A DNA stretch of 64,000 nucleotides, from contig NC_134847.1 of assembly GCF_965363235.1 (NCBI RefSeq), positions 64,666,144 to 64,730,143 on the forward strand, given 5' to 3'. Made by a program: the position numbers and the translations under genes. This document shows, in pieces, positions 731-61,400 of this stretch (the stretch's first letter is position 1; the number at the start of each line of letters is the position of its first letter). The notes beneath the pieces are model-generated. The model searched no databases. It worked only from the letters and a program-made list of their open reading frames with translations, and had not been told where the DNA came from. The stretch is from Mytilus galloprovincialis. Taxonomy: Eukaryota; Mollusca; Bivalvia; Mytilida; Mytilidae.

Positions 731-1703
731 GACCACAAAAATTTTAATTTTTTGGTCGTATATTGCTATCACGTTGGCGGCGTCTTTGTCGTCCTCGTCG
801 TCCGAATACTTTTAGTTTTCGCACTCTAACTTTAGTAAAAGTGAATAGAAATCAATGAAATTTTAACACAAGGTTTAAGACCACTAAAGGAAGGTTGGGA
901 TTGATTTTGGGAGTTTTGGTCCCAACATTTTAGGAATTAGGGGCCAAAAAGGGCCCAAATAAGCATTTTCTTGGTTTTCGCACTATAACTTTAGTTTAAG
1001 TGAATAGAAATCTATGAAATTTTGACACAAGGTTTATGACCACAAAAGGAAGGTTGGGATTGATTTTGGGAGTTTTGGTTCCAACAGTTCAGGAATTAAG
1101 GGCCAAAAAAGGGCCCAAATAAGCATTATTCTTGGTTTTCGCACAATAACTTTAGTATAAGTAAATAGAAATCAATGAAATTTTAAAACAAGGTTTATGA
1201 CCATAAAAGGAAGGTTGGGATTAATTTTTGGAGTTGAGGTCACAACAGTTTAGGAATTAGGGGCCAAAAAGGGGCCCAAATAAGCATTATTTTTGGTTTT
1301 TGCACCATAACTTTAGTATAAGTAAATAGAAATCTATGAAATTTACACACAAGGTTTATGACCATAAAAGGAAGGTTGGGTTTGATTTTGGGAGTTTTGG
1401 TCCTAACAGTTTAGGAATAAGGGGCCCAAAGGGTCCAAAATTGAACTTTGTGTGATTTCATCAAAAATTGAATAATTGGGGTTCTTTGATATGCCAAATC
1501 TAACTATGTATGTAGATTCTTAATTTTTGGTCCCGTTTTCAAATTGGTCTACATTAAGGTCCAAAGGGTCCAAAATTAAACTAAGTTTGATTTTAACAAA
1601 AATTAATTTCTTGGGCTTATTTGATATGATTTATCTAAATATGTACTTTGATTTTTGATTACGGGCCCAGTTTTCAAGTTGGTCCAAATCAGGATTCCAT
1701 ATC
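731..1703. repeat. Pearl-like element 1: terminal hairpin, GTC-rich tract, four ~160-bp tandem cores
   Basis: It starts with an imperfect hairpin, GACC...GGTC, at 731-757. A GTC/GGCG-rich stretch follows (770-805). Then come four tandem cores beginning at 815, 974, 1135 and 1296 (GGTTTTCGCAC-type start, periods 159-161 bp), containing the block GGGGCCAAAAAGGGCCC. A diverged tail of two related blocks ends near 1700. No coding capacity. Confidence 0.8.
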
Positions 1704-1800
1704 AAGTATTGTGCAATAGCAAGAAATTTTCAATTGCACAGTATTGCACAATAGCAAGAAATATCTAATTGCACAATATTGTGCAATAGCAATTAATTTT
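1690..1800. repeat. Palindromic 'ATTGCACAAT' repeats
   Basis: Four overlapping copies of TTGTGCAATAGCAA-like motifs in both orientations, including a perfect 20-bp palindrome at 1768-1787 (ATTGCACAAT and its complement). It probably forms the end of the preceding element. Confidence 0.6.
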
Positions 1801-1837
1801 CAATTGGAGTTATCTTTCTTTGTATAGAATAGTAGTT

Positions 1838-2125
1838 GATAATATATGTTGGAAATTTGCCAGACATGACTATGATGTCATTTTCTATTTTTATTTGCCA
1901 ATAACTTTATGTAAATAACTTCATTGGAAATTTGCCAATATAAAATGTTGCTGATGAAGCTTTTTTTCCTTATCTTATCTAAAATGTTTTTAGATAATGT
2001 ATGTTGGACATTTGCCAGACATGACTATGATGTCATTTTCTATTTTTATTTGCCAATAACTTTATGTAAATAACTTCATTGGAAATTTGCCAATATAAAA
2101 TGTTGCTGATGAAGTGTTTTTTATT
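1838..2125. repeat. Tandem duplication, 2 x 155 bp
   Basis: The second copy starts at 1993. Both contain the TTTGCCAGACATGACTATGA block and TTTGCCAATATAAAATGTTG; only a few differences, so the duplication is recent. Confidence 0.85.
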
Positions 2126-2299
2126 GTTTTATACAATAAACAATGTATATTCACTTTTACTACCAACCAATCTTTACCATTCAGTGATAACAAGCACTTT
2201 ATTTTACATTTTAATATTTTATGATGTATTTAAAAGAGTAGTTATTGTTGCAAACTCCATTAGAAATTTGAATTGATATCAGTTTTGGAAAAAGGGAAA

Positions 2300-2815
2300 T
2301 GGAAATGTGAAAAAAGGGGGGGGGGGAGGTTTAAATTTTTCTCATTTCAGATTTCATAAATAAAAAGAAAATTTCTTCAAACATTTTTTTGAGAGGATTA
2401 CTATTCAACAGCATAGTGAATTGCTCAAAGGCAAAAATAAACTTTTAAGTTCATTAGACCACATTCATTCTGTGTCAGAAACCTATGCTGTGTCAACTAT
2501 TTAATTTTAGATTTAAAAAGTTTGAAGAAGAAATCTTTGATTTGTAAAATCTTATCATTTGTTTTGTGTAAAAAAAAACCATGTAATGTCAAAAATTTGA
2601 TCACAATCCAAATTCAGAGCTGTATCACGCTTGAATGTTTTGTCCATACTTGCCCCAAATGTTCAGGGTTCGACCTCTGCGGTCGTATAAAGCTGCGCCC
2701 TGCGGAGCACCTGGTTGTAAAAGTTAACTATGAAGGACAACAATGATGATAGATGCTAAGTGATGGGAAAAGCTTACTTGGCCCTTCTGGCTAGATGAGC
2801 TTTAAATGAAAGCTA
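2300..2815. repeat. Dispersed repeat (family B), ends in hairpin-like tail
   Basis: It shares a long diverged stretch with 10140-10370: a G-rich start, TCAGAAACCT.TG.TGTCAA, ATTCAGA.CT.TATCA, TTGCCCCAA.TGTT, then GACCTCTG.GGTC. The tail (2715-2815) resembles 5160-5222: GTAAAAGTTAAC, GTGATG..AAAGCT, ACTTGGCC. A G12 run lies at about 2314. The 74-aa ORF over it is not a gene. Confidence 0.65.
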
Positions 2816-3252
2816 CCTAAGGTTTCTTTACCTTGTTTTAATATCACATTTATTTGATGACAACACATGTATAATACGGTATATTTTAATATAAAATATA
2901 TCTTAGACATTCAATATCAATAATATTTTGATATATAAAAAAAAATAAAATCTAAAGTTTAGTTCATAAAATTTGCAGTAGCCACAGCCTATGGAAATGA
3001 ATAGCTCCTTTATCCACAGGGAGGTGTATTCTCTTTATCTGAAAAAAGAATGAATAAGAGGAACATTATCATTAGAAATAATTCAGTATTCAATACGGCA
3101 GGTGTAAAATTGAATATTTTTAGCTACTTCCCTTTAATATCTATATCTTTATAAACTTTTCAGCCATGTAGAAAAAAAATCTAATAAGAAATTTTAATTA
3201 AGGATGAATACAAACATACATAATTGTAATATTCTCTATAAAATATAGTGGT

Positions 3253-3444
3253 GGACAACATTTAAAACCAACTATGACAACAACAATTCTACTGAAATTG
3301 CTTTTTTGCCTTTTTTCATTTAATTCTTCAAAACTGCCATTTTGATTTGGACAACATGTAAAACCAACTATGACAACAACAATTCTACTGAAATTGCTTT
3401 TTTGCCTTTTTTCATTAAATTCTTCAAAACTGCCATTTTGATTC
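3253..3444. repeat. Tandem duplication, 2 x 96 bp
   Basis: The units at 3253 and 3349 both begin GGACAACAT and end CTGCCATTTTGATT, with about three differences. Just downstream of the LTO1 3' end. Confidence 0.85.
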
Positions 3445-3729
3445 AGTCAGTAAATTGTGGCGGATAAAAAAAGTCATTTAAATATCTCTCTTTCTTAAAC
3501 CACAGTTTGATCATTCTTGGTCCTCAAAGAGAAAGTATGTCTATGTATTGTAATAAAGCATTGCATTTTTTGGGGTTAAAATATCAATGCACCATCGAAG
3601 ATCAATCATTGATTTAACATTTATCTCCACGTTAATTTTTGGCCAATTTTGTGCTAAATTGTACCTTCTCCTTTTAAACTAGTTTTATACAAAGATATAA
3701 TCCATTGAAGAGTTAATAAACAAACCTGG

Positions 3730-3735
3730 TTTATT
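3730..3735 (-). terminator. Probable LTO1 polyadenylation signal
   Basis: AATAAA on the minus strand, 58 nt after the LTO1 stop codon. It is the first canonical hexamer downstream, so a short 3' UTR is likely; no cleavage site can be proved from sequence. Confidence 0.5.
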
Positions 3736-3793
3736 GCACATCACAGCTGAATGTTCTATCAAGTCATCAGTTTTTTTTCTGCACTTTTCAATG

Positions 3794-6700
3794 TCAAAAT
3801 GACACCCCTTTATTCTCTTGTCCTGTGTTAAAATCTGCCTTCATCCCTAACAATGACATAATCTACAAACAAATTATTAAGCTTATTATATCAAAGATTA
3901 AAGAATGCTTCAAAAAGGACATTCAGAGAATTAAAAATATTTTCAAGTACATAAATAATCAATAAACAATCAAGAGACAACAACCCGACCACAAGGCATA
4001 AAACAGCTAATGGCCACCAATATATATAAAGTATAGCTGTAACATAAGCTGTCTACATTCTACAACATATAAACAAAATTTGAGAAATTTGAAGAATACA
4101 CTCACCAAAAGAAACATTTCACCAGTTTTGTATGAAAAGTTTTTAAGAAAAAAAATTGTAGGTAATTTTTTGTGAATGATTTATGACCTTCTTGTGTGTA
4201 GGAAACCACAAATTTAAGCAATTTTTTTTCAAACCACAAAAATTGAAACCAATAAAAATCCAAAGTAAATAAAAGGATATTACCTACCTGTTTAAACTTT
4301 GCCCTGATGTTCTCCAGTTTGTCAAACAGTAAGTTATTTGTTGGATCTTCCAAAGTTAACTCTGTGATTAATTTTAGAAGTGTCTCTGTTACTTTAAAAG
4401 CCCTAAATATAACACTATGTAATTAAAAGATGCCAACATCTTCACCAGAATGTATACAGTTTTAAATATTGCAGTACTAGAACACTTGTTAAAGATAATT
4501 TGTTTTGTTGGTTTTTCTTGAAAGTACAAGCAGTTGGTTATTTATGAATTCCCTGGCAAAACATGCAAACAGATTTTTGACAATGAATAACAATATCAAT
4601 TTAATATATTCTTCAATGCTACAATAACTCCTGTAGATAATGTTCACCTTTGATTGGATTTTTGTTAAGTGGTTACTGAGAGGCTGCAGATAAGATCCAA
4701 ATTTTTCCAATTAATTTCTTTTTTTCACATTTCCATACCGATTGTGAAACAATTGTTCTCCTCATTAGTGAATTAACTGTTCTCAGCTAACTGTTACACA
4801 ATTGGTCACAATTTTTAATTTATGACATCAAATTTTATGAATTTCCTATTGTGACGTCATGAAAAAAAGGCGACCATGCCTGATGATGTCACATATAAAG
4901 AACACAACTTTCTACAAATCTTTGAAAAGGACAGATGAAAATCATACAGAAACAGACCATGACAGACACAAAGTGATAGCAAAAACTCAAATTTCTTTGG
5001 AAAGGTGAGCTAAAACAATCTTTCTGAGAAGAAATTGTTAAAAATTGACTTTAAAGGGGTCAACCAAAAATTTTGGTCATGTTGACATATTTGTAGATTT
5101 TACTAATTAATGATTATGGCCAAGTTTGTTTAAATTTGGCCAAGTAGTTTCAGAGGAGAAGATTTTTGTAAAAGTTAACAATGCTGGACACCAGGTGATG
5201 ACAAAAGCTCACTTGGCCTTTTAAAAGGTGATTATTGAAATAAGAATGATAGAAAAAAACTACTAAAAGTACTTTTTCATTGACACATGTACCGGTACTT
5301 GATTTCATATGAATGTTTATACAAGGTATTTAGAAAGTTACAAGATACAAACCTCTGTTTGCTGTCATCATCCTGTATTTTAATTTGAAGTTCTTCAATG
5401 AAACCATGATAAAATCCAACCTACAAAAAACAAAGATATTGAAATGCTTATCCAAAACCTTTTACAACCAATAATGTCATAACTGATATATATATATGTT
5501 CCTTTATTTTCTTTTATCATTGATTCTAAATGCATTATTTATATATGTATAAAGTTAAATTTCAGTCATGTACAGATTGCATTTTACTTGATAACAACTT
5601 TTTAAAAGTAAATAAGATATGACTTTTTTGTACCTCTGATGCAATAGAAGATCCCTTTTCCCAACCTAGTCTGTATCCTTCATCATATCCAGATTGTTTT
5701 CCTGCTTCAAATCCAGCTTCATAACCCTGCGACTGAGATCTGAAAACAAAATTTTGAAAATTTATATGTATCTTTTTTGGAAGAAATGTGTCCGAAAGTG
5801 ACACTATGATTTTTGCAGGTTCTACTGTCTGATGGTATGAGGATAGCAGATGGGATTGCTACAATTTGATGTACTATTTTGTGGAACATTATCAATCTTG
5901 TGCGTAATCTTCTTTCCCGTAGTGTGAGCCAGTTTAGTGAGTTTATCATGTCTGTAGGACTGCTGATGTTATGGTATCTGTTACAGACATATCTGGCAGC
6001 TCGTCTTTGGACCATCTCAATTTTAGAGGTTTGTTCAACTGTGTGAGAGTTCCATACTAAACATGAATATTCAAGCTTAGGATGAACTAGTGCCAGATAT
6101 GCCTGGGTTTTGATGTTCTGGCATGATGTTTTTAAATTTCTTTTTAAGAAGCCCAAAGATTTGTTACCATTATCTATGATGTTGTCTGTATGTTTTGACC
6201 ATTTTAAGGTTTATGAACCCTTCTGTAGCCATTTTTGTACGAATTTTTCAAACTTCAATTGTATCAAAACTACAAATATAATGAATAATAGGGATAGGCC
6301 ATTTTGTACATATTCCAAGGGGAAACTTGATGCAAATCATAGTTATTTATTGTTTCATTGCATTTAATTGAAAAAGAGTATTTTGTGGCAAATAAATCAA
6401 GATTTTTATAGAAAATCCACAGCTTTTAATACAAAGATTTTTGTTATAAAATTTGAAATATAGATTACTCACTTGCTTTTATATGATGTGCTAGTGTTTA
6501 TTTTTTACAAAAAGTTGTAAACAGCCTGTAAATTCCAAAATACCTCATGCTGAGTCACTAAAGTCGAGCGCACCCTAAAAGGTGTACTTGATTTGGTCCA
6601 TATTTTAATTTGTTTTAACCAATAGCTACATTAATAAACTCGTTTTAAGGAAATCAATGCTAGCACTGCATGCAATAATCTTATATCTATCAGTCATGAA

Positions 6701-8007: not shown

Positions 8008-11000
8008 ATGAGTGAAAAGGAAAAAACGATAGAGAAAACAGAAACAAAGGAAGAATCCAGCAAAAAAGCTGAAAAGGAGCCAGAGAATGTAATGAAACAG
8101 ATGATTTAGTGTCTTTAAATAACATTTATACTTTAGTCTTTACTAAATAGCATTATCAGGCTGTGTTACACTAGATGTAAAAAGGACCATGTTGTTGCAA
8201 GACATGAGGGTCGAAACAGGGGGTTCTATAAGCATAAAGCATAAAAGATTTATTTAAAGTCGGGTATGCATATACCAATACAACATAGTCGGGTATGCAT
8301 ATACCAATACAACATAGTCGGGTATGCATATACCAATACAACATAGCTATTTAGAGTTTTTGACTGCCATACATATATGTGATAAGCACAGCCACAAGAT
8401 ATAAAACACATAAAACAGTTAGCACATCATGCAAAGCATGCATACTGGTATCAAGTATAGATACCTTTATGATAAATAACGGAAAACAAAATCATGACAA
8501 ATGACGTTAAACAGTTATTTTTTGTGCATAATGATAAAATGCACATTTTCTTGATGACGATAATACAATATTGGCTGATTTTGAAGCATTATGTTTGAAA
8601 AGTTGTATTTGTATTGTCTTATCACAGGAATCAGAAATTCTATCAATAAAAGTCAGTAAATAATAAAGTCAATGAGAAGCTCTACTATGATAAATCGACT
8701 GTGTTATATACAGACTTTTATTGGTAGAATTTCTAATTCCTGTGGTCTGATCATGATGAGACAGTATAAAAGCTCAATAGAGCTGATGTTTTTTCTGTAT
8801 TCTGACATTCATCTGACATTAACTATAGCTTTTGAACTGAACATTTATTTATTTTTCCAAATATAAGGGTTATGGATAATTAATTGAGACCACTAAAGAA
8901 TCATGATAAAGATATTTAGACAAATCCCAATAGAATTTTAACAATTTGAAGCTTGCAGTAGCCAAAAAAAAAAGGCTGTTTTGTGTCTGACCCTGAGTTA
9001 GACAATTCCTACCCACAGACATGTGCCTGTGTGAATTTTAAACCACAGGGGCTCTTCATAAAAATCGTTAGACTAGAATTGGTCCTTAAATGAAAGTGAA
9101 ATATTGATGATTTACAAGTATTTTTACTCATAAGAATTTTTGTGAAATGAGTCACAGTACCTTAATAATTTTATTATTCACAATTCATTTAATAAAAGTT
9201 TTAAAATTTAATTGACAAATTTTTTTTTGTTCATACAGCATGTACAGTACCACAACAAAACTTTAAACCTGTTGATGGCACCCAACATTTATAAACCTGA
9301 ACACCAAGATAACCTCTACAGACATAGAAAAGTCTGATACCTGGACTGTTAACACTGCAAACAAATTCTCATATATATATTTATAGCAAATATTGTTCAT
9401 TAATTTTAATCATCTTTACTATCATACTATACATACAGTTACTTTTGGATAGATAAAAAATTTAAAAGTGACAAGATACAAATCCAAATCCCTTCGAAAA
9501 TTACACAATTAACAATGATTAATTTCAATCAGGAACTACAAACAAAAGATTCCTGAAAATCGTTATCAGGCTTCATGTCAGCTTGTTTTACTGTGAGACA
9601 TGGTTTAAGATTCATCAGTTCACTCAACAATCTCTAGTATTTAGAATATTTTAATATATGCTCTTAACGTCTTAATGGCCTTATATTTGAAAACGTCATT
9701 GGATTTATATATGAAACTGAACCTCATATAATTTGCTATCTGCAGTTTTCATATGCACATGCTAGACGAAGTAATGTGTTTTCAGATTCATTTTTCTTCA
9801 GCTTCCTGTTTGCCAAATACTTAAAGCAGGGTTAGTATTAGTGAGTAATAGCTTGTGAGTTTAACCTGCTTTAATTGTGAATATTAACTTATGCACATAT
9901 ATTTTTAAAGGTTCACTCTGCCAACAAGTGGGAAGAAGTAGATTTGGGAGATAATGACAGGAAGAATAAATTCCTTCGTTTGATGGGTGCTGCAAAGGTA
10001 CAGATGTTTATGTTAATTGTACATTAAGGATCTATAAATATCAAAATGGTAGTGTCATATCATGTTTTCACAATTTTTTTTCATCACATGTCTACTCAAC
10101 ACGCAAAATGAGCTTTTGTAATAAATAAATGGCTTTCTAAGAATGTTAAAAAAAAATTGGGGGAGGGACAATTTCAATTTGTTCAAATCACATAACCAAT
10201 TCAAGTTCTTTGACTACAGTTATTGTGTGTCAGAAACCTGTTTTGTGTCAAATATTAATTACAATCTAAATTCAGACCTCTATCAAGTGAGAATATTGTG
10301 TCCATTTTTGCCCCAACTGTTGGACCTCTGTGGTCAAATCCAGCTGTGCTCAGTGAAGCAATATATATATAAACAAGTCTTAATTGAAAACAACGTTCAA
10401 ACCTATGATTGCATTGGATAAAAACCTTAATTTTTATACGTGTGCATGTAAAACAAATTTTGTTGTAGAGGGGTCTCAAAGCAGCACAAACAACATTTTC
10501 AAAAAGACCAAAAAAGTGAAAAATTATATTTTAACAAAACGCATTTGATATATTTTCAGAAAGAACACCATGGACAATTTGTTATTGGTGAGGAGAAAAT
10601 GCATCAACATGAAAGGGAAAGTATGTACATGTTTTGCAACTGCATTTTTTTATGCCAGTATAGCAAAGTCAACATATTAACATGAATTAAATGGCAAAAA
10701 TAAAAAAAAAACAAAAAACAAAGTTTCAAAATTTAATAAAAGTATTGAATTCGTTCCAAGTTTGTATTTTAAGATTATTTTTTTTAAAATCCATAAGACA
10801 GCAACCGAGCAACACATACAAAGTAAAAGAAAATCTACAGGTTAACATATGGTCTTCAACAAGCTGGCTAATTTTGTCTAATATGATGTCAAAGTGTTAT
10901 CACCTGGAATCAAGACATGTCAAAGATTTAATGTAACAAAGACTAACAGAGATCGACTATTCTAATGAGTAAAAAGATATTGCAAGGGAATTCAACATCA

Positions 11001-12694
11001 TGGTCCTTCGTTCATTAAAACGAACTTATGCATATTACTGAAGTTATCAAGATGATTTTTTATGCCCCATCTACGATAGTAGAGGGGCATTATGTTTTCT
11101 GGTCTGTTCGTCCCTCTTCAGGTTACAGTTTTTGGTCAATAGTACACATATGCCCTATGATATGATCTTTCTAATTTTAATGCCAAACTAGAGTTTTGAC
11201 CCCAATTTCATAGTCCACTGAACATAGAAAATGATAGTGCAAGTTTCAGGTTAAAGTTTTTGATGAAGTTGAAGTCCAATCAACTTTAAACTTAGTACAC
11301 ATGTTCCCTTTGATATGATATTTCAAATTTTAATGCCAAATTAGAGTTTTGACCCCAATGTCATAGTCCACTGAACACAGAAAATGATAGTGCAAGTTTC
11401 AGGTTAAAGTTTTTGGTTGAGGTGGTTTTTGATGAAGTTGAAGTCCAATCAATTGAAACTTGGTATACATGTTCCTTATGATATTATCTTTCTAATTTAA
11501 ATCCAAATTAGAGTTTTTATCCCGATTTCACGGTCCAAGAAACATAGAAAATGAGTGCTAGTGGGACATCCGTGTATTATGGACACATTCTTGTTCTTAA
11601 ATATTTTATGAAATTTTTATGCCCCATCTACGATAGTAGAGGGCCTTATGTTTTCTGGTCTGTGCATCTGTTCGTTCGTTCCTTCTTCCATCTGTTCGTC
11701 AGTCTGTCCCACTTCAGGTTAAAGTTTACGGTCAAGGTAGCTTTTGATGAAGTTGAAGTCCAATCAACTTGAAACTTAGTACACATGTCCCCTGTCATAT
11801 GATCTTTCTAATTTTAATGCCAAATTAAGAGTTTTTACCCCATTTCATAGTCCACTGAACATAGAAAATGATAGTGCGAGTGGGGCATCTGTGTACTGTG
11901 GACACATTCTTGTTTTTTATGCATGTTAAGATTTTATGCATAATATGAATACAAAAAGTTCTGAAAAAAACAATGTTATGTACAATAAGACTTCCAAATA
12001 CAAAATAAAACCATCTTGAATACAAACTTTAAACGAATTTAATACTTTTATTGAATTTTGAAGCTCTGTTTTGGGGTTTTTTATTTTCATTTTTGCCATT
12101 TCTTGATTGGAGAATGATTTTATAGATTATGACAACATTTTTACTGTTTTGGCAATGTCTAATTTATATAAATGTACAATAATTTTCCTGTCTTATTTAT
12201 CCTTAATCTATTTTGATGTGGACTTATCATTGCTTTTGACTCCTAATAATTTAGTTAGTAGATAGTCTGATACTCTTGTCCCCCCTCAAGTATTATATAC
12301 ATGTAGTCTGTAGGATATAAATATAAAATAAAGTAGTCCATCTTTATAAGTAAACAATACATTTCCTACTTATTCTTTAAATGTATAATTCAGTTTATGT
12401 ATTTTGACAGGCCCAGAGAGAGACGTGGAAGAAAAGTTAGAAGAACAGTTCAACAAAGGATTAGAACATAAGCTGTTAGCTGGTCCTAAAGCACATATAG
12501 GCCTAGGATTTCATGAAGATCCAAAGAAAAAGTCTTTTAATTCTGAGGAGGGAAAAGATGAAACCAAAGAAGGGGACAAGGAAAAAACTGACGAAAAAGT
12601 GGCAGAAAAACATAAACTAGACGATAAATCTGATTCTAATGTCCCAGTGAAAAAGAAAATGATGTGCAATTTTGTAAAAGCTAGTGATTCATGA
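8008..12694 (+). CDS. SMAP: Small acidic protein (SMAP/C11orf58), complete, 4 exons
   Basis: Coding exons (plus): 8008-8088, 9911-9997, 10560-10620, 12411-12694; GT-AG introns, phases 0, 0 and 1, 170 aa (human about 183). Residues 1-27 are Lys/Glu-rich and poorly conserved. Residues 33-66 (NKWEEVDLGDNDRKNKFLRL, then MGAAKKEHHGQFVIG) match human NWEAADLGNEERKQKFLRL, MGAGKKEHTGRLVIG. KLLAGPKAHIGLGFHED matches KLSGRYRRHCGLGF. A charged low-complexity Glu/Lys/Asp tract follows. The C-terminus KKKMMCNFVKASDS matches human YKMMFVKSSGS. The start is the first ATG after an in-frame stop at 7978. The family is conserved in animals but its molecular role is poorly known, so I claim none. The tail is less acidic than in vertebrates: the long Asp run is replaced by mixed Lys/Glu. 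Introns 1 and 2 carry several repeats. Confidence 0.95.
8259..8346. repeat. Tandem repeat, 3 x 29 bp
   Basis: Perfect units containing CGGGTATGCATATACCAATA start at 8261, 8290 and 8319. In SMAP intron 1. Each unit contains the palindrome GTATGCATATAC. Confidence 0.85.
8623..8744. mobile_element. 122-bp hAT-like MITE with ~32-bp TIRs
   Basis: Arms CACAGGAATCAGAAATTCTA and CACAGGAATTAGAAATTCTA, extending to AATAAAAGTC, with about 2 mismatches. Flanks GTCTTATC and GTCTGATC are a possible 8-bp target duplication with one change. In SMAP intron 1. Confidence 0.75.
10140..10370. repeat. Family B repeat copy, older
   Basis: Parallels 2300-2720 (GGGGGAGG, TCAGAAACCTG, AATTCAGACCTCTATCA, GCCCCAACTGTT, GACCTCTGTGGTC). 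In SMAP intron 2. The overlapping 92-aa and 74-aa ORFs are not genes. Confidence 0.6.
11056..11594 (+). repeat. Pearl-like element 2, copy a (hairpin ATGCCCC/GGGGCAT)
   Basis: Starts with hairpin ATGCCCC..CTAC/GTAG.GGGGCAT (11062-11090), then TTCTGGTCTGTTCGTCC, followed by tandem cores containing GATGAAGTTGAAGTCCAATCA, and ends near GTATTATGGACACATTCTTG. The same family occurs at 11614, 30121 and 59934. In SMAP intron 3. Confidence 0.8.
11614..11912 (+). repeat. Pearl-like element 2, copy b
   Basis: A second complete but single-core copy, 20 bp after copy a and in the same orientation: hairpin, TCTGTTCGTTCGTTCC tract, one core, end TGTGGACACATTCTTG. Confidence 0.8.
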
Positions 12695-13439: not shown

Positions 13440-14185
13440 TGAATTTATGTTGCAAATCTGTTATCTGTAATCGTCCATACATCCCAAAGTTGATTTTCGT
13501 TCTCTAACTTTAGTTTGCTTCAACCAAATATCATGAAACTTACACAAAATGCTTATTACCACAAAACACAGATCAAGTATGGATTTTGGTGGCATCACCT
13601 GTACCATTTTTGAGTTATGCCCCTTTACAAATGAAAAATTAAGAATCTAATATCTGTTCTAAAAATATCAAATGTGTAATTGTTAAAATTAATTTTTGAA
13701 ATTGAATCTATCTTCCTTTGTCCATAATTGTAGTTGATCCAAAATTGAAATTATCTTCCTTTGTCCATAATTGTAGTTGATCCAACTACAATTATGGACA
13801 AAGGAAGATAGCTCCCAATTTTAAAAATTAATTTGAACAATTACATCAACTACAACCACTGCTTTTTACAATGCAATTTTTCACTAAAAAAATTAAAACA
13901 ATCTTTACCCTTCGGTGCTTACAAGCACTTTGATTACAGTTCTTCAGTTTTGTCCCTTTATATCGTAATCTTATATGATGTATTGTTTCCATTCTCTAAC
14001 TTAAGTTGGTCTCAACTAAATTTAATGAAATGTATATACAAATCTATAATGCTTATTACCACTTAACTCAGTTTAACTTTGGGAAGCGAGACTTTTGCAG
14101 TTCTTAAGTTATGTCTTTTCATAATGTTATATGCTAGGGGGTGCATCTTCAGTGTCCCTATGGACACATTCCCCATTTATTCTAC
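13440..14185. repeat. Pearl-like element 3, interrupted by a hairpin insertion
   Basis: Two diverged cores (TCTCTAACTTTAGTTTG and ATGCTTATTACCAC at 13500-13640; TCTCTAACTTAAGTTGG and the same ATGCTTATTACCAC at 13993-14060) flank a different sequence. The end at 14130-14180 carries GGTGCATCTTCAGTGTCC and ATGGACACATTCCCC, as in element 2. Confidence 0.6.
13708..13810. repeat. Perfect 28-bp inverted repeat with an extra direct copy
   Basis: Arms at 13752-13779 and 13783-13810 are perfectly complementary around a 3-bp loop (ATCTTCCTTTGTCCATAATT on the left). The left arm is also present as a direct repeat at about 13709-13737. Confidence 0.8.
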
Positions 14186-21670: not shown

Positions 21671-39341
<17,671 letters not shown>

Positions 39342-39371: not shown

Positions 39372-41820
39372 GTAAAAGATTGGTTTTATATTTTTCAATA
39401 ACGCAAGCCATATACATCATAAATGTATGCATGCATCTGTTAACAATTATTATAAACAAACCAACAATTTATTTTTTGTAAATTCAACTGTCTTCATAAA
39501 TGTAAGACCACAATGTGTGTAATGCTGATACCAAATGTTTAAAATAATGATTTACCAAAATATTTTTTCTTGTGTACTGGCATCATTATCTAGTCAAGTT
39601 CCTTCCCACAATGCATCCAGCAATTCACATGAATTCTAATATAGATCTCATCTTTAATATTGATGATTTCATCATAATTAACATTTACTGACATCATTAC
39701 ACCTAAGCCATTTTTTCTTAGATAAGTGTTTATGGTAATAAATTTGCAATACATCATCACGTATATATGGATCATTTCATGTTATACATACTTAAGGAAA
39801 TACTAACTACATTTTTAAACCTTTAATCATGTAATTCACAAATTGGTTTTGCATTTTATGCCATCAAGTAATATAAATTTTAGGTATGCTTCATGATCAA
39901 CTTTAAGCAATGATTTATGCAGTATTTTAAACCAAAAAAAAACCAAAAATAACTTTCTAATTTCACTTTTTGGAGAAGTTGCCTGCTCGTTATTCACGGA
40001 GTTACATGCATATTGGTAAGGAAGCATAGTGTAAGCTATTTCATCATGAAACAAAGACTTTATTCCTTGTTTGTCCATGCACATACCCCCTTTACACCCT
40101 CTTCAAAGATAGCACAAGACCTGGGGTATCATAGCACTTGTGTGCATTGTCAGGGCCTGTCATACAGACTTCAGCAGACTATGAAGGTACCTAGATCAGT
40201 ATCAATGGTTGTTGGTCAAGAAATAGGAATAAAACTTGATGTTTTACACATAGGATATCTTGACTAATCAGCTTCTCCCAAAATTGTAATCACTATTGTG
40301 AGGGTATAATTAAACATGGATAAACATGGATAAGCTGGCAATCAAACAAAAAAATCAACATTTGATTTCATTCTATTTTTGCCTTTATCATGTACATGTT
40401 TATCAAATTCAGACCTGTTTTTTGTAATATAGTTAATAAAGTGTGTCCTCGGTAAGAATTGGGATTATCTGGCTTTAGAAAAAACCTTGAATTTCAAACA
40501 CTAATCTTATCAACTCAAACTTAATCCCACTTCATTCATTTTCCATTTTTCCAATAAAATGTCTTACCATGTGTAGAAACAAACACTTGTATAATGCTGG
40601 TATCTGTCTTTTTTACAAAGAAATCTAGATATCTTCACTTCAGGTAGAAGATATGACAATTGTAATATATATAACAATTATTTATCCTAAAATTGTTTCC
40701 ACTAATCCAGGACTGCACTAAATCAATCTCTCACAATCATGGAAATAATGTTTTCAAAAGAGCTATATTCCAACTTCAAAGATATAATGGTAAAACATGC
40801 ATTCTTACACGTACATGAATATATCAAATAAATCCTGCACTACTTTATAAATGACACACTATCAATATCCATTGTGAGTTTAAAATGAGACCAAATTTAA
40901 CTGTAAAAAATATGTGTTTCAATAGTGTGGTAATTTCTTTCCAGGTGTCCTTCTAACATTCTGATACAACACTTGTCAATGGCACAAAGACTTAAGATAC
41001 TGTTCAATAAGTACCCTATGAATGTTATGTAAAATAAATTGTAATTTTTGGATTAACAACAAATACTAAATAGTCCTAAGTACAAAGCTTTTGTGTTTAC
41101 ATTTAAACATTACAAGCCAACTGAGTAGTTACGTTGTGTATGGAAGTGTTTCGATCATTTCTCATTGCTAATTATCGTCAAAAGGCCGTGAACCGCGATT
41201 ATGATCTTCAAGTTAATTTCAAAGTTTTAAGTTTTAAATGTGTTGATATAACCAAACAACATTGTATAAAGTGTCTACAGAAAACCTAAATGTTTTTGTT
41301 TGCTTTCTTTCAAATCATAGATAATTAATTTAAAGTTATTTAGTCATTGAAAAGTTTTCAAACTGACCTAATTATAGGTATAAAGGATAAAGGTATGTTT
41401 AACCACTAATTGTGGGATATTTTATTAGAGTTCAAATGTGACAAAGTTAAAAAAAAAAAAAAATAACTTCCAAAGTTCCAATCCAGATACAAACTATTCA
41501 TTTTTAACAATTTTCAGTAATCAAACACATTTTCTAAACACATTAAGATTGTGAAAATCTTGTAAACAAGTAATGACAAAAGGTTTCATTTCCCTGCCAG
41601 TCATAGGACAGATAAAAACGCTTCAAAGACATTTTCATATTTAAAGCATTTCTCTCAACTATTATATTTTTGTATTGAACATACATGAGAAGACGCCAAA
41701 TAAAATTAATGGCTAAGGTAAAATTTCTAAAATGATAAAGGCTGAGTAGCACAACAAAGTGACTGATGACTTAAAAGCAAATAGGATTGTAACACATTTA
41801 TATCAATTGAAAAAAAAATA
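39372..41820. other. Upstream flank of the STK33 start, or a 5' UTR intron
   Basis: No gene recognised. An 84-codon plus ORF at 40013-40267 lies between short inverted GGAGAAG words (39972 and 40271) but matches nothing I know. Confidence 0.4.
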
Positions 41821-42043
41821 GAACTGTATGGAACCAAACCCACAGCTTATAATAATGTGATCAGTCATATATATATGTAGTTAACTAATTAGAACTGTAT
41901 GGAACCAAACCCACAGCTTATAATAATGTGATCAGTCATATATATATGTAGTTAACTAATTAGAACTGTATGGAACCATACCCACAGCTTATAATAATGT
42001 GATCAGTCATATATATACATGTACATGTATGTAGTTAACTAAT
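41821..42043. repeat. Tandem repeat, 3 x 71 bp
   Basis: GAACTGTATGGAACCA starts at 41821, 41892 and 41963; units include GTGATCAGTCATATATATA. The third unit carries a small TACATG expansion. Nearly identical, so recent. Confidence 0.9.
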
Positions 42044-49090: not shown

Positions 49091-51184
49091 CAATATGTGC
49101 ATGTTGTCAAGATGTTTGTTGGTGATGTTGCACATAAAAAAAGAAAAAGATGCAAGTAAAACGTTCAGTTCCTAAGTGTACTTTAAAATTAAGTTTAAAT
49201 TATGGTACATGTATTATATATCAAGTTCATACATGTATATACATTGTATGAAGCCTCTAATTTAAAAAAAAAAATTATGCATATATATATGTTTTTTATA
49301 ACTAAATTGATAGTTTTCATTATAAAACCTATTTAAAAAATGTACATATATACTTTTTTCTGAAGAAAATTCTTTGATTTGTCCACATTTAGATAAAGAT
49401 TACTTTTTTTTAATTGCTTGCTTTCAGGAAGCAATTTGCCGCCATATTTTCTGTATGCAAAGTGACCTTAGCGTGACCCGGTCTAGTACAATTCATGCAG
49501 ACCGCCACTATTTAGCCTATAATATTTTTTTATGGATGTGCAACCTTTAAACCAAAATTCGGTGATCGCAATACCCATGGATCTCACATTGAAATAAACT
49601 ATTATCTGATTGTACATGTTATACATGTGCTCAATATCCATGCTTCATTGTTCATTGTTGATTGTTCAAAATAAGGTGACAATCTGTAAACCTGGGCTTC
49701 AAAACATGACAAATAATTAGTCACCATATTTTTACAATATATAAACAGACAGAGAGAGAGAAAAAAAACTGTTGATTATGTGATGTTTGCATAAAAAATG
49801 ATAAAATCATGCACAGAAGAATAAGTTTATGATAAATACATGCATTGGTTCAAGAATTGAATAAACATTATTTTTCACCAGTCACTCTTTTCATATGACT
49901 TTAAGTAAAAATAAAAATATGCAAATTTTCAACTGGGCTGTAATCAACACTGACATTTAACACATTACACAGTCTTTTATCAAATATTTGTCTATATATT
50001 TAAATTCTTGCATAATTCATTCTTTAATTGTATAACTAACTATAATTCATTCTTTAGTTGCATAACTAAATATAATAATGTTCCAGGCAAAGCATCGCAT
50101 CATTTGAAATCCCTTCATACAAAAGCTATATAAAATGAACAAAAAATTACCCAAGCCCAAAGTCAAACAGAAAAGGTCATAATGTACAGTAACAGTATAC
50201 CACCCTTTCCATGAAATTATTACAACATTATTAGGTAGTTTTATGTCTTTTAAGTTTAATATATTGTTAACACAAGGATGTGTCTCTGACGCCTGTATGT
50301 ACAAAATGTAGTTTCTAAATTCAATAGGGAACATATGTAACATTATTGTAGTAATAAACCATTATATAAGACAATGATTTACATTTTGATAGGCTCAATC
50401 AGTAGTTAAAGTGGTATATTGAAATAACAATTTGCTTTTAGCAGACAAATCAGTTCAAATGTGTCAAAATAAGCAAAGAAATATCACTGATGAATTATTT
50501 ACTTGCAAGTGAATAATTCTACCTCATTAAATTGGTATTCATTTGACCTTCAATTTAAAATAAAACAGATAGGGCATAATTTAGAATTGAAAGTGAAACA
50601 AAGGTGAACCACATCATTGACTGATTCGATCCACCAAAAATTTGGTTAAAACAATATTTAAGTTATTCTTTACATCATAAAACATGAAATCGAACATAAA
50701 AAACCCAATTGCATGAGGTCGCAAATTATTTATCTTTATGTATTTTTATATCGGCATAGTAGCCAGAAATGTCGGTGGCACTCTATGTTACCGTTTTGTC
50801 TATCCTGTTACCGATATCAGTATTTCACCTGCAAATGCTAAATTGGGAAGATTTTTTCATTTTCTGTGGTTGCTATTATTTTGAATAAGTGCTGTTATGC
50901 AAAAGGTCTCAGACCGTTATTTATGATTATGTATATATGATTACCTAATAAAAAAAACAAAAAAAACATCATAACTCATATTAATCCAATCATAGGGCGC
51001 GTGTTTCTGTTTAATGCAAACTTTGAGTATACAGATTTCGGAGGTGTTAATCCTTTAATTAGTTTATGTGATTGCCAATTATCAAACAAATTTACAATTA
51101 TTAACGTGAAAGTATATGCTGTACGGTTTATATGTTTGTTTTATATTTGTTTATCTGTATGACAGACTGAATAAACTAGATACA
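49091..51184. other. Intergenic AT-rich DNA
   Basis: No gene or defined element seen. An (AG)n run lies near 49751. The ORF at 50047-50343 has no family features. Confidence 0.4.
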
Positions 51185-51795
51185 AAAAAATGTATCATTG
51201 AGATGGGAGCCATCTCTGTGGGCCCCGCTGTGAATAATGTGCATTAAAAAATTGTATCTTTACCATAGGACATGGGTTTGTCAACTACAATCAAAGTTTT
51301 TGACCTTGACCTTTGACCTAGGAAGTTGTAAATAAATTATGACACACCCTTTGGTGTTGGTTTATAAACATGTCAAGTATAAACTTTGAAATGATAACGG
51401 TTCTCAAGATATAGAGCGGACGCGATCTTTCCCATAGGACATGGGGTTGTCAACTGAAACCAAAGTTTTTGACCTTGACCTTTGACCTAGGAGGTTGTAC
51501 ATAAATTATGACACACCCTTTGGTGTTGGTTTATATACATGTCAAGTATAAACTTTGAAATGACAACGGTTCTCAAGATATAAAGCGGACACGATCTTTA
51601 CCATAGGACATGGGGTTGTCAACTGAAACCAAAGTTTTTGACCTTGCACATACATCATGACACGCCCTCTGGTGGTGGTTAATAAACATGTAAAGTATAA
51701 AGTATGAAATCATAATGGTTCTCTAGATATGGAGCGGACACAAAAGTGTTACGGACGGACAGACTGATCACTATAGGGTACACGCCTAAAATATA
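51185..51795. repeat. Pearl-like element 4, three ~169-bp cores
   Basis: Starts with hairpin GAGATGG/CCATCTC near 51200. Cores contain CATAGGACATGGG at 51263, 51432 and 51601 and TTTGACCTAGGAAGTTGTA; the third is internally deleted. Ends with ACGGACGGACAGACTGATCA. Confidence 0.85.
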
Positions 51796-53240: not shown

Positions 53241-54055
53241 TTTTCTTACTTTGTCCCCAATCACAGATAACACCTCCCCCCATATAATTTACTCTGCTTT
53301 AGGCAATGCTACCTTGTAAACATGTAAAGTTTATAAATCAAATCATATAAACAAAATATTGTGCTATCTTACAGTGTTATTAAATAAGAAACTTGCAGTT
53401 TTTCATTTTCTCAACCACTTGTTGAAGTATCTCACCTAATCACATGAGACTGTCAGAAGCCTAACTGAACGTTTGGATCACCTCTTCTAATTTACATTAA
53501 TGTCTTGAACTTAATCCTGAAATGCTAGAGCTAGAAATCATGATGGGTTCACTAAATATTTATATAATTCTAACTTATTTAGCGGTGCCACTTTGAAATT
53601 CGGGTCGCCATAGGCGCTGTTTTGCTTCTAAGAATGTGCGCACTTCTTCTACGCAACCGGAAACACATATTTGCTTTCGGAATTTATTTGACTTTTCTAT
53701 AAGATACAATCTCATCCGAGTAGAAAATTAAAGTTTTTAAGCGGGAAATTTAAAATTACGTGCGAAGCATTTTAATCTCAATGTTAAATGGTATTTTTTT
53801 TATAATAATGATTAATTCTTCTATAATAACAGGAGGAAGAATTGGATTATTCTGGACACAGCATTTTCTGTTTCAATATGTTTTAATTTCAAAGATACAT
53901 TTTTTTTTAAAAGATCTTAGAATAGAAATAAAAGAATTGATTATATAACATAGACACAGGGGAGGATCCAGTCAGTTAAAAATGTTCAATTTCCAATGAG
54001 ACAACAAAGCACATTACATAAATAGAAATTAAAGAACCTTAGTGAGCACGCTCAC

Positions 54056-54637
54056 ATACCCCACGTCCCCACATTGTCAATGGAGAAATTAAATAAGTAT
54101 AAGAAAAAAAAATTGTATGAGAAAAAATATTGAATAATAATTTCCTGTCAATATACATAGTATGTCCTTATTATCTACAAAATTTCATGAAATTCTGTTG
54201 TGTGTTTTCAGAGGAGTTGAGATGACAAAACTGTTGCGGAAGTACATTGAGGCAAATAAGTTCAAAGGGACATAACTCCTAGAAAAAAAATTGAACCGTA
54301 ATTTCCTGTTGATATGCACATCTACATAGTATGTCCTTATTATCTACAAAGTTTCATGAAATTCTGTTGTGTGGTTTGAGAGGAGTTGCGATGACAAACT
54401 GTTGCAGTAGAACATTAAAGTAAATAAGTTCAAAGGGGCGTAACTCCTAGAAAAAAAATTGAATCGCAATTTCCCGTCGATATGCACAACTACATAGCAT
54501 GTCCTTATTATCTGAAAAGGTTTCGTGAAATTCTGTTGTGTGGTTTGAGAGGAGTTGCGATGACAAGAAACAGGACTGACGGACGGACGGACGGACTGAC
54601 GGACGAACGGACTGACGGACGGACGGACAGTGGGACA

Positions 54638-54673
<36 letters not shown>

Positions 54674-54689
54674 TCGTTGCGTGGGGTAT
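54056..54689. repeat. Pearl-like element 5, three ~169-bp cores
   Basis: Ends ATACCCCACG and CGTGGGGTAT. Cores carry GTATGTCCTTATTATCTAC at about 54161, 54330 and 54499 and GAGGAGTTG.GATGACAA. An (ACGG)n tract lies at 54586-54640. The terminal hairpin is ATACCC..GCAACTTCGTTGC..GGGTAT. The two ORFs over the ACGG tract are artefacts. Confidence 0.87.
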
Positions 54690-56405: not shown

Positions 56406-56559
56406 TATTTGTCTTTAGGGAATTCATTGTGTTTTGATTGATTTAAGCCATTGCAATTGATATTTTATAGTGTGTCTTTCTATGTATTGTTTCAGATAAG
56501 GGTGAAGGTTGGTATCTATTAAAGCGCTTAAATCAGCTGTATCTGTTGCACTTGCATCC

Positions 56560-56825: not shown

Positions 56826-57339
56826 TTGACAACATTTTTTTTCGAGTCACACACAATTTTTTAAGTCAGTGCAATTCACGGCTTGACATATTGAAAGCTC
56901 AACTTATTATAGAAGACCATATGTGAACAATTAGAGGCTTTTCCATTATTCATATAATTCTGTCTAGTTAATATATATCCTAGCTCTCTTTTATTCATAT
57001 AAAAGTCTTTCTCAAAGTACACACAATATTCACTGTTTTCAAACAAAACTAAAAAATTACCCTAATCATGACAATAAAATCTGTAAATATCCATTACATA
57101 ACTGTATTTTAATACAAAGCTCTATGTAATATAGTCTATACTGAACACTTATGTAATACTCTACATAAAAAAACAAGCAAGTTAATTGCTTACACTTTAC
57201 TTGCAAATTACCTGTATGAAGTCTTGAAAGCAGTAAAACCTCTTGTTATCCTGTTTATAAGAAATTTGAAAATGGGCTCTCATACTAAAAAGTCTAAACT
57301 GTCTATCGGAGGGGCAATAACCAACCAATACAGTTGCCT

Positions 57340-57440
57340 TAGAATGACTGCTTATAACAACTTCATTTGCAGTTGGTTGTTGGATATCAGATAATTGTCT
57401 CATTGTCAATCATACTACATCTCCTTATTTTTATAAAGTT
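57340..57440 (+). repeat. R1-related 3' fragment
   Basis: CAGATAATTGTCTCATTGTC, AATCATACTACATCTCCTTA. Confidence 0.55.
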
Positions 57441-58120
57441 CAAGATCAAATATCTATCTTTCCACAACACAACAGAGAACATCTAATGAAAGTTTTGGTT
57501 GGAATGACAGATTGATTATTATATTTAATGCAATATACCAGCAACTCAAGGAAAGGGTGGATATAGAATGAACTAAATCAAAACAGGCTGATAAAGAAAT
57601 TGCTGCCTAGTTCACATTTTTGTATATTTTTAAAATGGTTAACATTTCCAAAGGGGATTACATGTTTACCTGTCTTAATGTGGAGGCAAATATATGTGGT
57701 GAAACATATTAACTCCTCAAGATATCATAATAGATCATCACCTTTAAGAGTGTTTATCACTGGGCAATAATTTATCTCAATCCATGCACCTAGCTTCATT
57801 ATATTTATTACTTTTATTCTAATTTTAATTATACCACAATTAGTTTAAATTCAACCTTTAAACTGATGATTTCAACTTTCATGACATGAGTGATCTTCAG
57901 ACATTTCACACAAAAATGAAGATATCCTTTACATATAAGGTCTATTTGTTAAATACTTAAGTTTGTTGACTATTCTGAACTAATCAGGTGTCTGTCCCAA
58001 GTCAGAAGCCTTTAGTTCAGTGGTTGTCATTGGTTCATGTCTGTCATATTTGTTTTTCATAAGCTGTTTTGTTATAAATTAGGCCATTTGTTTTATCAAT
58101 TGAATCTTTTCATATCAAAG
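57441..58120. other. Intergenic DNA downstream of MSH2
   Basis: Nothing recognised. Confidence 0.4.
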
Positions 58121-58265
58121 CCTTTTATAGTTGATCAGATGTTATGGGTTTTTCTCATTGTTGAAGGCCATAAGGTTGCCTATTATGGCTTACATCAACT
58201 TCATTTGAACTTCAGTGGATAGTTGTCTAATTGGCAATCATACCACATCTCCTTGTTTTTACATG
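58121..58265 (+). repeat. R1-related repeat next to the MSH2 3' end
   Basis: CTTTTATAGTTGATCAGATG, CATTGTTGAAGGCCATAAGG, TGTCTAATTGGCAATCATAC. Confidence 0.6.
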
Positions 58266-58429
58266 TAATATCATGTGCTAATGAAGGTTAGATCACACAA
58301 AAATCGAGTGACAGACAAGTGAGTAATTATCAAACCTAACAAATTTTCCAATTCTTTAAATGATTTTTCTGTGGATATTTTTTTATCATAACCAATGGCA
58401 ATAATAAATAAAATCTATATAAATCATGC

Positions 58430-58435
58430 TTTATT
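58430..58435 (-). terminator. AATAAA hexamer immediately after the MSH2 stop
   Basis: On the minus strand, AATAAA starts two nucleotides after the TGA stop. If used, the 3' UTR would be only 20-40 nt; a more distal site is equally possible. Confidence 0.4.
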
Positions 58436-58437
58436 TG

Positions 58438-61400
58438 TCACTGACCCCTAGCTAATACATCATTCACATAAGGATTATTTTTAGATTTGACATTATCTTT
58501 AAGTTTGTTCAATTCTTTAGTCAAGTCTCCTTCTGACATAGAGTCTATAGGTAAGGCTTTCACTTTCTTCAAAAATTCTTCAATGATTTCTTCTCCCTCC
58601 TACAAAAAAAGAAAATATCTATCCATCATATTCTAAAGACATCATGAAAAGGAAAGTATAAACTAAACAAGAGGCTGTCACAACGACAGCAAACCGGATT
58701 TATTAACATTAATTTGTGTCCTGGCAATATCACAAGAACCATTACTGATGAATGGTGAAAGTGAAAATCGTCAATATCAAATTTGACCTCCATTTTGTCA
58801 TCAGTATCAACATATTAAAATTTGAAAAGCTTAGATTGAATGGTTCATGAGTAAATGCAACAACCTGAATGGAAACACCATTTTACGATCTTTCAAGAAC
58901 CATAACTCCTGAACGGTAAAAGTCAAAATCATCATTATTGAACTTGACCTCTATTTTGTCATCAGTAACAACATATTAAAATTTCAAAAGCTTTGGTTGA
59001 ATGGTTCATGAGAAAATGCACGGACACGACGGGAAAAACCATTTTTCAATCTTTCAAGAACCATAACTCCTGAACGGTAAAAGTCAAAATCGTCATTATT
59101 GAACTTGACCTCCATTTTGTCATCAGTAACAGCATATTAAAATTTCGGAAGCTTTGGAAGAACAGTTCATGCATAAATGCACGGACACGACTGGAAACTC
59201 CATTTTTCAATCTTTCAAGAACCATAACTCCTGAACGATAAAAGTCAAATTCGTCATTATTGAACTTGACCTCCATTCTTTCATTAGTAACAACATATTA
59301 AAATTTGGGAAGCTTTGGTAGAACAGTTCATGCGTAAATGCACGGACAACTGCATTTTTCAATCTTTCAAGAACCATAACTCCTGAACGGTAAAAGTCAA
59401 AATCGCCATTATTGAACTTGACCTTCGTATAGTTGTCAGGAATAACATATTAAAATTTTAAAAGCTTTGGTTGAACGGTTCATGAGTTAATGCACAGACA
59501 ACATTTGATTGCCGCCCGCCCGCCCGCCCGCCCGACCGCCCGGCCGCCCGCCGTACATCCCCAAATCAATAACCGACATTTTTGTCACAAAAATCCGGTT
59601 AAAAATGCTTTGTAATTACTAAACACATCATTTGTCTTACTTTTCTTAGTACAATAATAAAGAACAAAGCAAGGTCATTTTTTTTAAATGGAACTATGAC
59701 ACACACAAATTGCATTTCAATCAGATTGGTGTACTATCTATATCTATATTTTTTTTATTGCAAGGTTATAATAGCCTAATAGAAATCAGAAAATCATCAA
59801 ATTTTTCAGAAGAAATTTATGTATAAAACAAAGAATTAACTGTAGATTTTTTTCCTTGGGTACCCATTTTTATGGATTGAGAAAAAAACTTTCATTTTTG
59901 TGGATATCTGATTTCCTGGGTTTACAAGCCTTTAACAAGAATGTGTCAATAGTACATGGATGACCCACTCGCACTATCATTTTCTATGTGCAGTGTGAAA
60001 TTGGGGTCAAAATTCTAATTTGGCATTAAAATTAGATAGATATTATCATATGAAACATGTTTACTAAGTTTCAAGTTGATTGGACTTCAACTTCATCAAA
60101 AACTACTTTGACCAAAAACTTTGACCTGAAGCCGGACAGACACACAAACAAATGGAATGGCAAACAGACGCACAGACCAGAAAACGTAATGCCCCTCTAC
60201 TAGATGGGGCATAAAAATGTGTACTTCCTAAACATTAAAAATTCTATGTTTATCTAATACTACTTAATACTGGAAAATTTATATCCTATGAATATTTATG
60301 TTTTCTCTATGTTTTGTTTTATAGGAAGATTGTTTACCTCTTTCACCACCTTTCTTTTCTTGACAGCAGGTTCATCATTCCCTTCTAGTCCTGTCCCTGT
60401 CAAACTAATGCTCTGGAAATCCTCTAATTCACTAGCCTTCTTCTTAGCAAAGTCTATGACATTTTTTGGAAAATGTGCTAATTCTGCAACATGTATTCCA
60501 AAACTCTGATCACACACACCTAAAACGATAAAATTATATTACACTATTTTAATGAAAGAAAGCAAGAATGGAATAATTTATGACAAAACGTCAAAAGAAA
60601 AACGAATTTAGAAGAATGAAAGCAACCTTCAGTTCATTGCTGAAAACCTGTCAGTAAGGCCACACCAATTTGATCCCTTGTTCGACGGACCCGCCCGCAC
60701 CTATTTTTTTCAAAACAGAATTTTTTAATCTTTTTATATTCTCGCTTCCCGCATCCAGAATTGTAATCATGTCCATTTCCCGCACCGTTTTTTTGTTGTA
60801 AATATTATAAAAAGATATCAACATTTGTTAAATTTATCACAATCTAACCTGTATATAACGATTTTAAACACAAAGCACCCCACCACACTGTGTAAATATC
60901 TGTGAGAATATTTATTTCAGCATGAAACCTGGAGTGCTCCGATAAAAAGTTATAACAGCGGGTATTTCCGTGAAGAACAAAAAATTGGTTTCTTTCCCCC
61001 TTACTTATATTTCCTATCAAAAAATGATCGTTGTTAGAATAAAGTACAAAGAACTTCTGAAGGATTTGCCTTCAACTGCAATTATATTGTATGCTGGCGA
61101 AACAAAACTATCCATAGCCGCTGCATGTTTATGCACCTGTCCTGATTGATTCAGGAGCATGTCGTTCAGCAGTTATCGTTTGTTGATGTTGTTCATTGGT
61201 ACTTTCCCGTTTGGATATATAAATTAGATCGTTGGTTTTCCTGTTCGAATTGTGTACGCTAATAATTTTGGGGTCCTTTATAGCTTGCTTTTTGGTCTGT
61301 ATCAAAGCCCTGTGTAAAAGGACGGACTTTGACCTGTGTTTGTTATTATCAGGTTGAGAACAACCCTCCCTCAGACAAGGGGTCATTTTACTGATGTAGA

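Follow-up and report, generated by a model that had tools for sequence, protein, structure and literature searches.

Bivalve genomes are rich in pearl elements and Helentron-associated interspersed elements (HINEs) with satellite-like cores, and two oyster studies did not identify the mover of these repeats (PMC7492417, PMC7992393). In the oyster Crassostrea gigas, 11 HINE families have been described alongside 10 autonomous elements (PMC7492417), while autonomous sequences were not detected in the oyster assembly of PMC7992393. Helentrons and HINEs were defined, and paired with one another, in arthropods (PMC4067079). The accessible text of PMC10294476 and PMC12818792 contains nothing on HINE partners, and no bivalve Helentron/HINE pair was found in the literature within reach, which leaves subscription journals mostly uncovered and is not proof of novelty. 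The current study concerns a stretch of 64,000 nt of Mytilus galloprovincialis (C10:64666144–64730143, here called the window), which carries the repeat families F1 to F6 and fragments of a further one, F10. It is considered very likely that F1–F5 (and, less surely, F6) are HINEs moved in trans by related Helentrons, and that F10 has an autonomous partner, Helentron B, elsewhere in this genome.

Like the elements of the window, the oyster Cg_HINEs (PMC7492417) have a 5' subterminal inverted repeat (subTIR), an inverted repeat, a microsatellite, a 3' subTIR and a palindrome, are inserted at TT without duplication, occur as several families in one genome and have cores of 138–181 bp, mostly 160–180 bp. 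They differ in that each Cg_HINE core cluster occurs with one end pair and none of the autonomous elements proved relatable to the Cg_HINEs, whereas here related cores sit among different ends and F10 has such a partner. Pearl elements, with up to six cores of ~160 bp (Discussion of PMC7492417), and MgE from M. galloprovincialis, said there to be comparable in architecture, can be likened to the window elements by description only. The arthropod pairs, including DINE-1, also combine a Helentron encoding Rep, helicase and endonuclease with short derivatives that have common subTIRs and a 3' stem-loop, and their insertions are flanked by T without duplication; arthropod HINEs share 84–99.9% with their partners, whereas Helentron B and F10 share ends and cores and diverge upstream of the 3' subTIR (PMC4067079 for the arthropod pairs). 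The HINEs themselves are ordinary in kind, and what this genome adds is the F10–Helentron B pair and the shared core lineage.

All of F1–F5 display, from 5' to 3', a T run, a subTIR, its inverted partner, a GC-rich microsatellite, the cores, a 3' subTIR, a hairpin, the end and a T (Table 1). With F3, F4 and F5 read on the minus strand, all families have the same polarity, with the microsatellite at the 5' side. Exact ends were defined from genome copies (F5 10, F4 10, F3 6, F1 7) together with the window copies, and for F2 from the copies in loci L001–L008 and the window; searches covered 331 contigs (1.385 Gb), and the best 40 candidates were scored in each DNA search. Since each has its own subTIR, the families are separate ones under the rules given in PMC4067079. 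In F1 the 5' subTIR reads ATACGACC in most genome copies compared and ATAAGACC in the window copy. The first-pass annotation, made from the letters of this stretch, had recognised pearl/Helitron-like elements with terminal hairpins, and both points are largely supported: F1–F5 are HINEs by their subTIRs, hairpins, cores and T flanks, and conserved 3' hairpin ends are present in F1–F5 and F10, with a hairpin in F6 as well. It had also described a GC-rich microsatellite beside most ends, which is borne out by the arrays of F4 and F5 and by the short GTC runs of F1 and F3, but the microsatellite is degenerate in the window copies of F2. Tandem cores of 150–170 bp had been proposed throughout; Tandem Repeats Finder (TRF), used to call the tandem repeats of the window, gives periods of 161, 169, 169, 169 and 161 bp for F1 to F5, but the F10 core is 501 bp long and the size is not universal. 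The longest stop-free stretches in nine window elements (F1–F6), on which no protein search was run, span 42–114 codons.

The 3' ends read CTGG/T in F1, CTTG/T in F2 and F5, CTAG/T in F3 and CTTTAA/T in F4 (the slash marks the terminus). An end motif shared with autonomous Helentrons, which the annotation had put forward as a check, was found as CTNG/T in F1, F2, F3, F5, F10 and Helentrons B and D, but not in F4. Among random segments, 1.2% end in CTNGT. The last base is not fixed for Helentron A (it lies within GGTTTTTAATT) or for F6.

F10 is the family in which the window copy of F1 is nested, and was absent from the first-pass list. Its link to an autonomous element is given by Helentron B (C1:86677602–86694367, 16,766 bp), which has the F10 5' end upstream of its open reading frame (ORF; 98.4% over 63 bp), an F10-type 3' end (CTAG/TT) and F10-type cores of its own. 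The part of this ORF available (1,528 codons) matches Helitron_like_N (1.4e-25) and PIF1 (3.1e-23) and carries FYRVEFQQRGSPHIH, an instance of the Helentron-type Rep motif (RGSPHxH) as given in PMC4067079. Helentron B and the F10 HINEs are alike at 32 of 36 positions of their 3' ends (88.9%), and they share an identical subTIR of at least 11 bp, the length that defines partners. When joined, the flanks of Helentron B align over the junction with F10 cores at 15 places, eight of which, shown as alignments, are 81–90% identical over 124 columns; because the flanks close into an F10 core, Helentron B is a single insertion, made into an F10 array. A third Helentron B copy (C2:32808548) has the same 3' end.

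The Helentron B 3' end, written as a 34-place pattern, occurs at 3,714+3,709 (7,423) exact places in the genome and the F10 5' pattern at 2,395+2,382 (4,777), with none for either reversed control; such counts omit mutated copies and are silent on whether an element is complete. Two loci with the Helentron B 3' pattern were examined (L106 and L107), and both are HINE-type F10 with 501-bp cores, the latter with both ends. Positions were listed for the first 100 places per pattern, all on contig C1. Among the 100 listed F10 5' ends, 54 fall in the first 15.4 Mb of C1, the stretch covered by the 3' listing, and 43 of these 54 pair with a listed 3' end on the same strand within 30 kb (opposite-strand control, 2). 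The sizes of 33 of the 43 pairs fall into four classes ~505 bp apart (~0.78, 1.3, 1.8 and 2.3 kb), and the others range from 1.1 to 6.2 kb, apart from a single one of 17.3 kb. In the latter, a second B-type Rep match (C1:2922923) lies between exact F10 5' and 3' ends on the same strand, 17,341 bp apart, and these coordinates point to a second F10-ended Helentron of 17.3 kb. Both ends and an empty site thus tie a long-ORF Helentron to a HINE family whose ends occur in thousands of copies, and very probably a Helentron B-type element moves the F10 family. The pair opens the way to tests of which proteins spread the cores, of whether different ones are needed by T5 and T2 families (described below), and of whether arrays grow during transposition.

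Insertion sites were compared in 54 unique copies (F2 16, F4 12, F5 11, F1 8, F3 6 and Helentron B 1), that is, 53 HINEs and one Helentron. Copies of F2 were admitted only if the search expression matched them at each end; two of the F2 rows, from L001, were removed because that locus is the window itself, and F6 was excluded because it has no recognised 5' end. All 54 copies have a T as the first base of the 3' flank, and 53 of them have a T as the last base of the 5' flank. Duplications of at least 5 bp do not exceed chance: two were observed, one of them within a local AT repeat, whereas shuffling the partners gives 3.35 on average. The annotation had named insertion into TT or AT sites without target site duplication as a test, and these flanks display insertion between Ts with no excess of duplications of at least 5 bp. 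Paralogous empty sites were compared for F5 (L057 vs L102), F1 (the window copy vs window 5119–5209 and L004:621–702) and F2 (L004 vs L005, L043 and L102); relative to the best-matching ones, the joined flanks have two additional Ts in the T run and no other duplicated sequence. These two Ts may either belong to the element or be duplicated target bases, an ambiguity that is likewise described in PMC4067079. Canonical Helitrons (5' TC, insertion between A and T) were rejected as a model, as F1–F5 and F10 lie between Ts and none begins with TC.

The 5' T run is five long in F1 (7/8 copies), F5 (10/11), F2 (10/16) and the single Helentron B copy, and two long in F3 (6/6) and F4 (10/12). These T5 (F1, F2, F5, B) and T2 (F3, F4) classes could represent two machineries, and probably the different families use different but related Helentrons. 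The annotation had suggested that one mobilising machinery acts on many cores; this stands for a class of machinery but not for a single enzyme, because partners of F1–F5 were not found, each family has its own subTIR and only F10 is tied to an autonomous element. That a single B-type lineage moves every family regardless of its subTIR is improbable, even if CTNG/T is common to F1, F2, F3, F5, F10, B and D, the T5 run is common to most F1, F2 and F5 copies and B, and the 5' ends of F2 and F4 are ~72–74% alike over 112–137 bp, microsatellite included. Against it, F3 and F4 belong to the T2 class, and other Rep families have ends of their own (A and D), that of Helentron A recurring at 543+511 exact places.

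Altogether, 138 PF14214 rows, fragments included, were found in the genome. A B-type match (profile 70–191) is present in 28 of them, and in 16 of these the open frame has 2,500 codons or more. The 3' end was readable for the three Rep families A, B and D, all with a hairpin near the end, and D ends in CTTG/T; those of families C, E, G and J and of the elements in L011 and L016 were not reached or not recognised, and scanning partial 5' windows against partial 3' windows for inverted repeats gave no result. In L040 (7606–7768), the Helentron A 5' end, consisting of the subTIR and its inverted partner, is present three times in tandem, ~50 bp apart. In L103 (C6:61039690–61043190), a Helentron D copy terminates inside an apparent F1 HINE.

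A strict test without mismatches, demanding a 5' inverted repeat, a matching 3' subTIR and a 3' hairpin, was passed by five of eight end pairs (F3, F4, the F10 HINE and Helentrons B and A); its criteria were chosen with the families already known, each family was represented by a single copy, and the Helentron A pair joined ends from neighbouring elements. F1 and F2 fail because their 3' hairpins hold one mismatch, and F5 because of a 5' arm of only 5 bp (AACCG/CGGTT). Taken singly, with one copy each, exact subTIR matches of 7–12 bp occur at both ends in all eight pairs, an inverted repeat of at least 6 bp adjoins the 5' subTIR in seven, and a 3' palindrome lies near the terminus in six under the strict test. 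The end sequences are family-specific and short inverted repeats are common (5.8% of random window segments have a 5' inverted repeat and 3.2% have a 3' hairpin), as would be expected if the families were unrelated transposon types, for instance miniature inverted-repeat transposable elements (MITEs) with terminal inverted repeats, alike by chance or convergence. Only one in 40,000 random window pairs has the three structures jointly, the inverted repeats are asymmetric (near the terminus on the 5' side, inside the hairpin on the 3' side), and duplications of at least 5 bp do not exceed chance, so this explanation is very improbable. Satellites dispersed by recombination or extrachromosomal circles, with incidental ends, would account for tandem cores, adjacent F2 pairs and end-to-end joins of F8 and F4, but are the least credible source given the recurrence of the same ends and T flanks in the examined F1–F5 copies, the empty sites, and the F10 size classes that one pair of ends delimits.

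Under the preferred reading, mobilisation of HINEs in trans by Helentrons, the Rep/helicase/endonuclease proteins of such Helentrons would act on ends composed of subTIR and hairpin, nick T-rich targets and copy the element by a rolling circle that starts at the 5' subTIR and runs as far as the 3' hairpin; they would tolerate any number of internal cores. A mechanism of this kind would fit the F10 size ladder (about 0.8, 1.3, 1.8 and 2.3 kb) as well as the insertions that are nested or abut one another. Several observations weigh against this reading. Transposition itself was not observed, and no autonomous partner was found for F1–F5, as among Rep families A, B and D only B matches a window family (F10). 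The endonuclease match of Helentron B is weak (Exo_endo_phos_2, 19.2 bits vs a Pfam cut-off of 27.4, E 0.0011), and 2.7 kb inside its ORF lie outside the sequence examined. Its last 60 bases align with those of F10 HINEs at only 47/63 and 49/65 columns, and because of this divergence the two are placed in one family but different subfamilies under the rules of PMC4067079. F4 departs from the CTNG motif with its CTTTAA/T end, and F6 lacks a recognised 5' end. Short flank matches of 2–4 bp are slightly commoner than in shuffled pairs (mean length 1.72 vs 1.31), which leaves room for a 2–4 bp duplication in some copies, and T-run lengths differ at some other paralogous sites. Lastly, copies of F2, F4 and F8 near Helentrons A, B, C and G were rejected as Helentron ends and are insertions: homology of two Helentron C copies continues past the F4 taken as its 5' end, the F8/F2 element at the 5' side of Helentron B is missing from the second B copy, and the F2 beside Helentron A possesses a 3' end of its own, preceded by shared sequence.

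The families had been regarded as unrelated in sequence. To compare them, consensus cores were aligned circularly in HINE orientation against 2000 dinucleotide shuffles (15 pairs). The F1 and F6 cores are identical at 105 of 139 aligned positions and those of F5 and F6 at 106 of 141, both in the same orientation and beaten by none of the shuffles. The similarity of F4 and F5 was reached by 16 of 2000 shuffles and is only suggestive given 15 pairs; the remaining 12 pairs show no significant similarity, and no pair is significant in reverse complement. Compared directly, F1 and F5 are not significantly alike (121/2000), and they are linked because both match F6. By these alignments, relatives of one core are carried by F1, F5 and F6, three or more families whose ends differ, so the claim of unrelated sequences fails for them but stands for F2 and F3. 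As the three cores descend with divergence from a single one, ancestry accounts for part of the constancy in core length. In the 501-bp F10 core, the first and second thirds are similar (0/300 shuffles), the other two pairs being matched by 152 and 266 of 300; a 167-bp period is not clearly visible, and the F10 core does not significantly resemble those of F1–F6. A further, tentative possibility is that HINE frames and cores evolve separately: an ancient ~160-bp core would persist in at least F1, F5 and F6, and whole sets of families would be moved in trans by Helentrons of a T5 class (B-like) and a T2 class (perhaps A-like), so that a few autonomous elements circulate a changing library of satellite-like cores.

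Table 1. Features of the window, in order of position (window coordinates).
Feature	Position	Strand	Remarks
F10-like sequence left of nested F1	118–721	-	blastn with F10 copies L106/L107
F1 HINE, full length	727–2714	+	T5 and TT flanks; inside F10 copy; ends from 7 genome copies and window
F1 5' subTIR and inverted partner GGTCGTAT	727–761	+	subTIR ATAAGACC in window copy
F1 GTC-rich microsatellite	781–803	+	
F1 tandem cores, 161 bp x 3.8	815–1430	+	TRF
F1 3' end region	2681–2714	+	3' subTIR GGTCGTAT; imperfect hairpin 2692–2708; end CTGG/TT
F10 5' end region, degenerate, right of nested F1	2717–2801	-	
Second F10 fragment with 5' end region	5044–5218	-	
F2 HINE copy a	11062–11593	+	
F2 HINE copy b	11619–11912	+	starts 25 bp past copy a
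F6, old HINE-like element	13486–14184	+	core taken as 13486–13645; 3' hairpin 14152–14167; 3' base not fixed
F7, further HINE-like 5' end (ATGCCCCC..GGGGGCAT)	29735–29772	-	by eye
F2 HINE copy c	30123–30571	-	absent from first-pass list
F3 HINE	51176–51795	-	3' end CTAG/TT; hairpin 51200–51216; subTIR 51220–51228
F3 tandem cores, 169 bp x 2.3	51256–51646	-	TRF
F4 HINE, full length	54029–54689	-	3' hairpin 54042–54055; 3' subTIR 54056–54065; 5' subTIR at 54689
F4 tandem cores, 169 bp x 2.4	54154–54566	-	TRF
F4 GGAC microsatellite	54573–54646	-	TRF
F5 HINE, full length, young	58668–59600	-	3' hairpin 58674–58690; 3' subTIR 58692–58701
F5 tandem cores, 161 bp x 4.8	58733–59500	-	TRF
F5 GCCC microsatellite (TRF unit CCGC)	59512–59552	-	TRF
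F2 HINE copy d	59936–60212	-	

The F1 3' pattern occurs at 844+853 exact genome places (1,697; reversed control 0). Within the window copy, a 155-bp tandem pair (1838–2122, 96%) is distinct from the 161-bp cores, so that this element contains two kinds of array. The F10-like sequence to its left shows patchy similarity (118–284 at 70%, 638–682 at 89%), and its 3' end was not recognised. For F5, the 40 best places in the genome (scored from 2,498 first-look candidates), of which the window copy is one, are all near full length and 97–100% identical, and 3' ends with the loop left free were found at 1,600 places (reversed control 0). In the window copy of F3 the 5' subTIR is lost, so that the end at 51795 is approximate, and a short insert lies close to the 3' end.

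The four copies that had been placed at 11056 are actually two F2 elements, a and b. Tandem cores of 169 bp x1.9 were called by TRF at 30158–30479 in copy c, and a possible degenerate F2-like 3' end lies at 23741 on the minus strand. At L008:1868, one F2 3' end abuts the next F2 directly, and in L046 and L109 (C3:4339420–4343220) an F8-type 3' end, CTTGTT, abuts an F4 5' end in the same way; new insertions may favour the TT that remains where a HINE terminates on its 3' side. An apparent chimeric HINE is present in L044 (1669–2201), where an F8-type 5' end and microsatellite are followed by an F2-type core and 3' end.

F6 corresponds to the probable element proposed at 13440. Its core and 3' hairpin support that proposal, but TRF found no tandem unit (the core at 13486–13645 was cut by hand) and no 5' end was recognised. 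After its own locus, the 40 best genome rows are 71–86% identical. Another family, F9, occurs twice in one locus (L097:851 and 2006); its 5' end is a hairpin and its microsatellite is GGC.

Rfam gave nothing in the window at gathering score. Outside the described HINEs, the window holds two minisatellites, of 29 bp x3.1 (8258–8346, 100%) and 71 bp x2.8 (41819–42017, 99%), and, on the minus strand at 29800–29930, a stretch that by eye looks coding and resembles a protein kinase exon. A dispersed repeat at 62382–62598 is 97% like the sequence directly after a Helentron A 3' end on C12 and is a possible empty-site marker.

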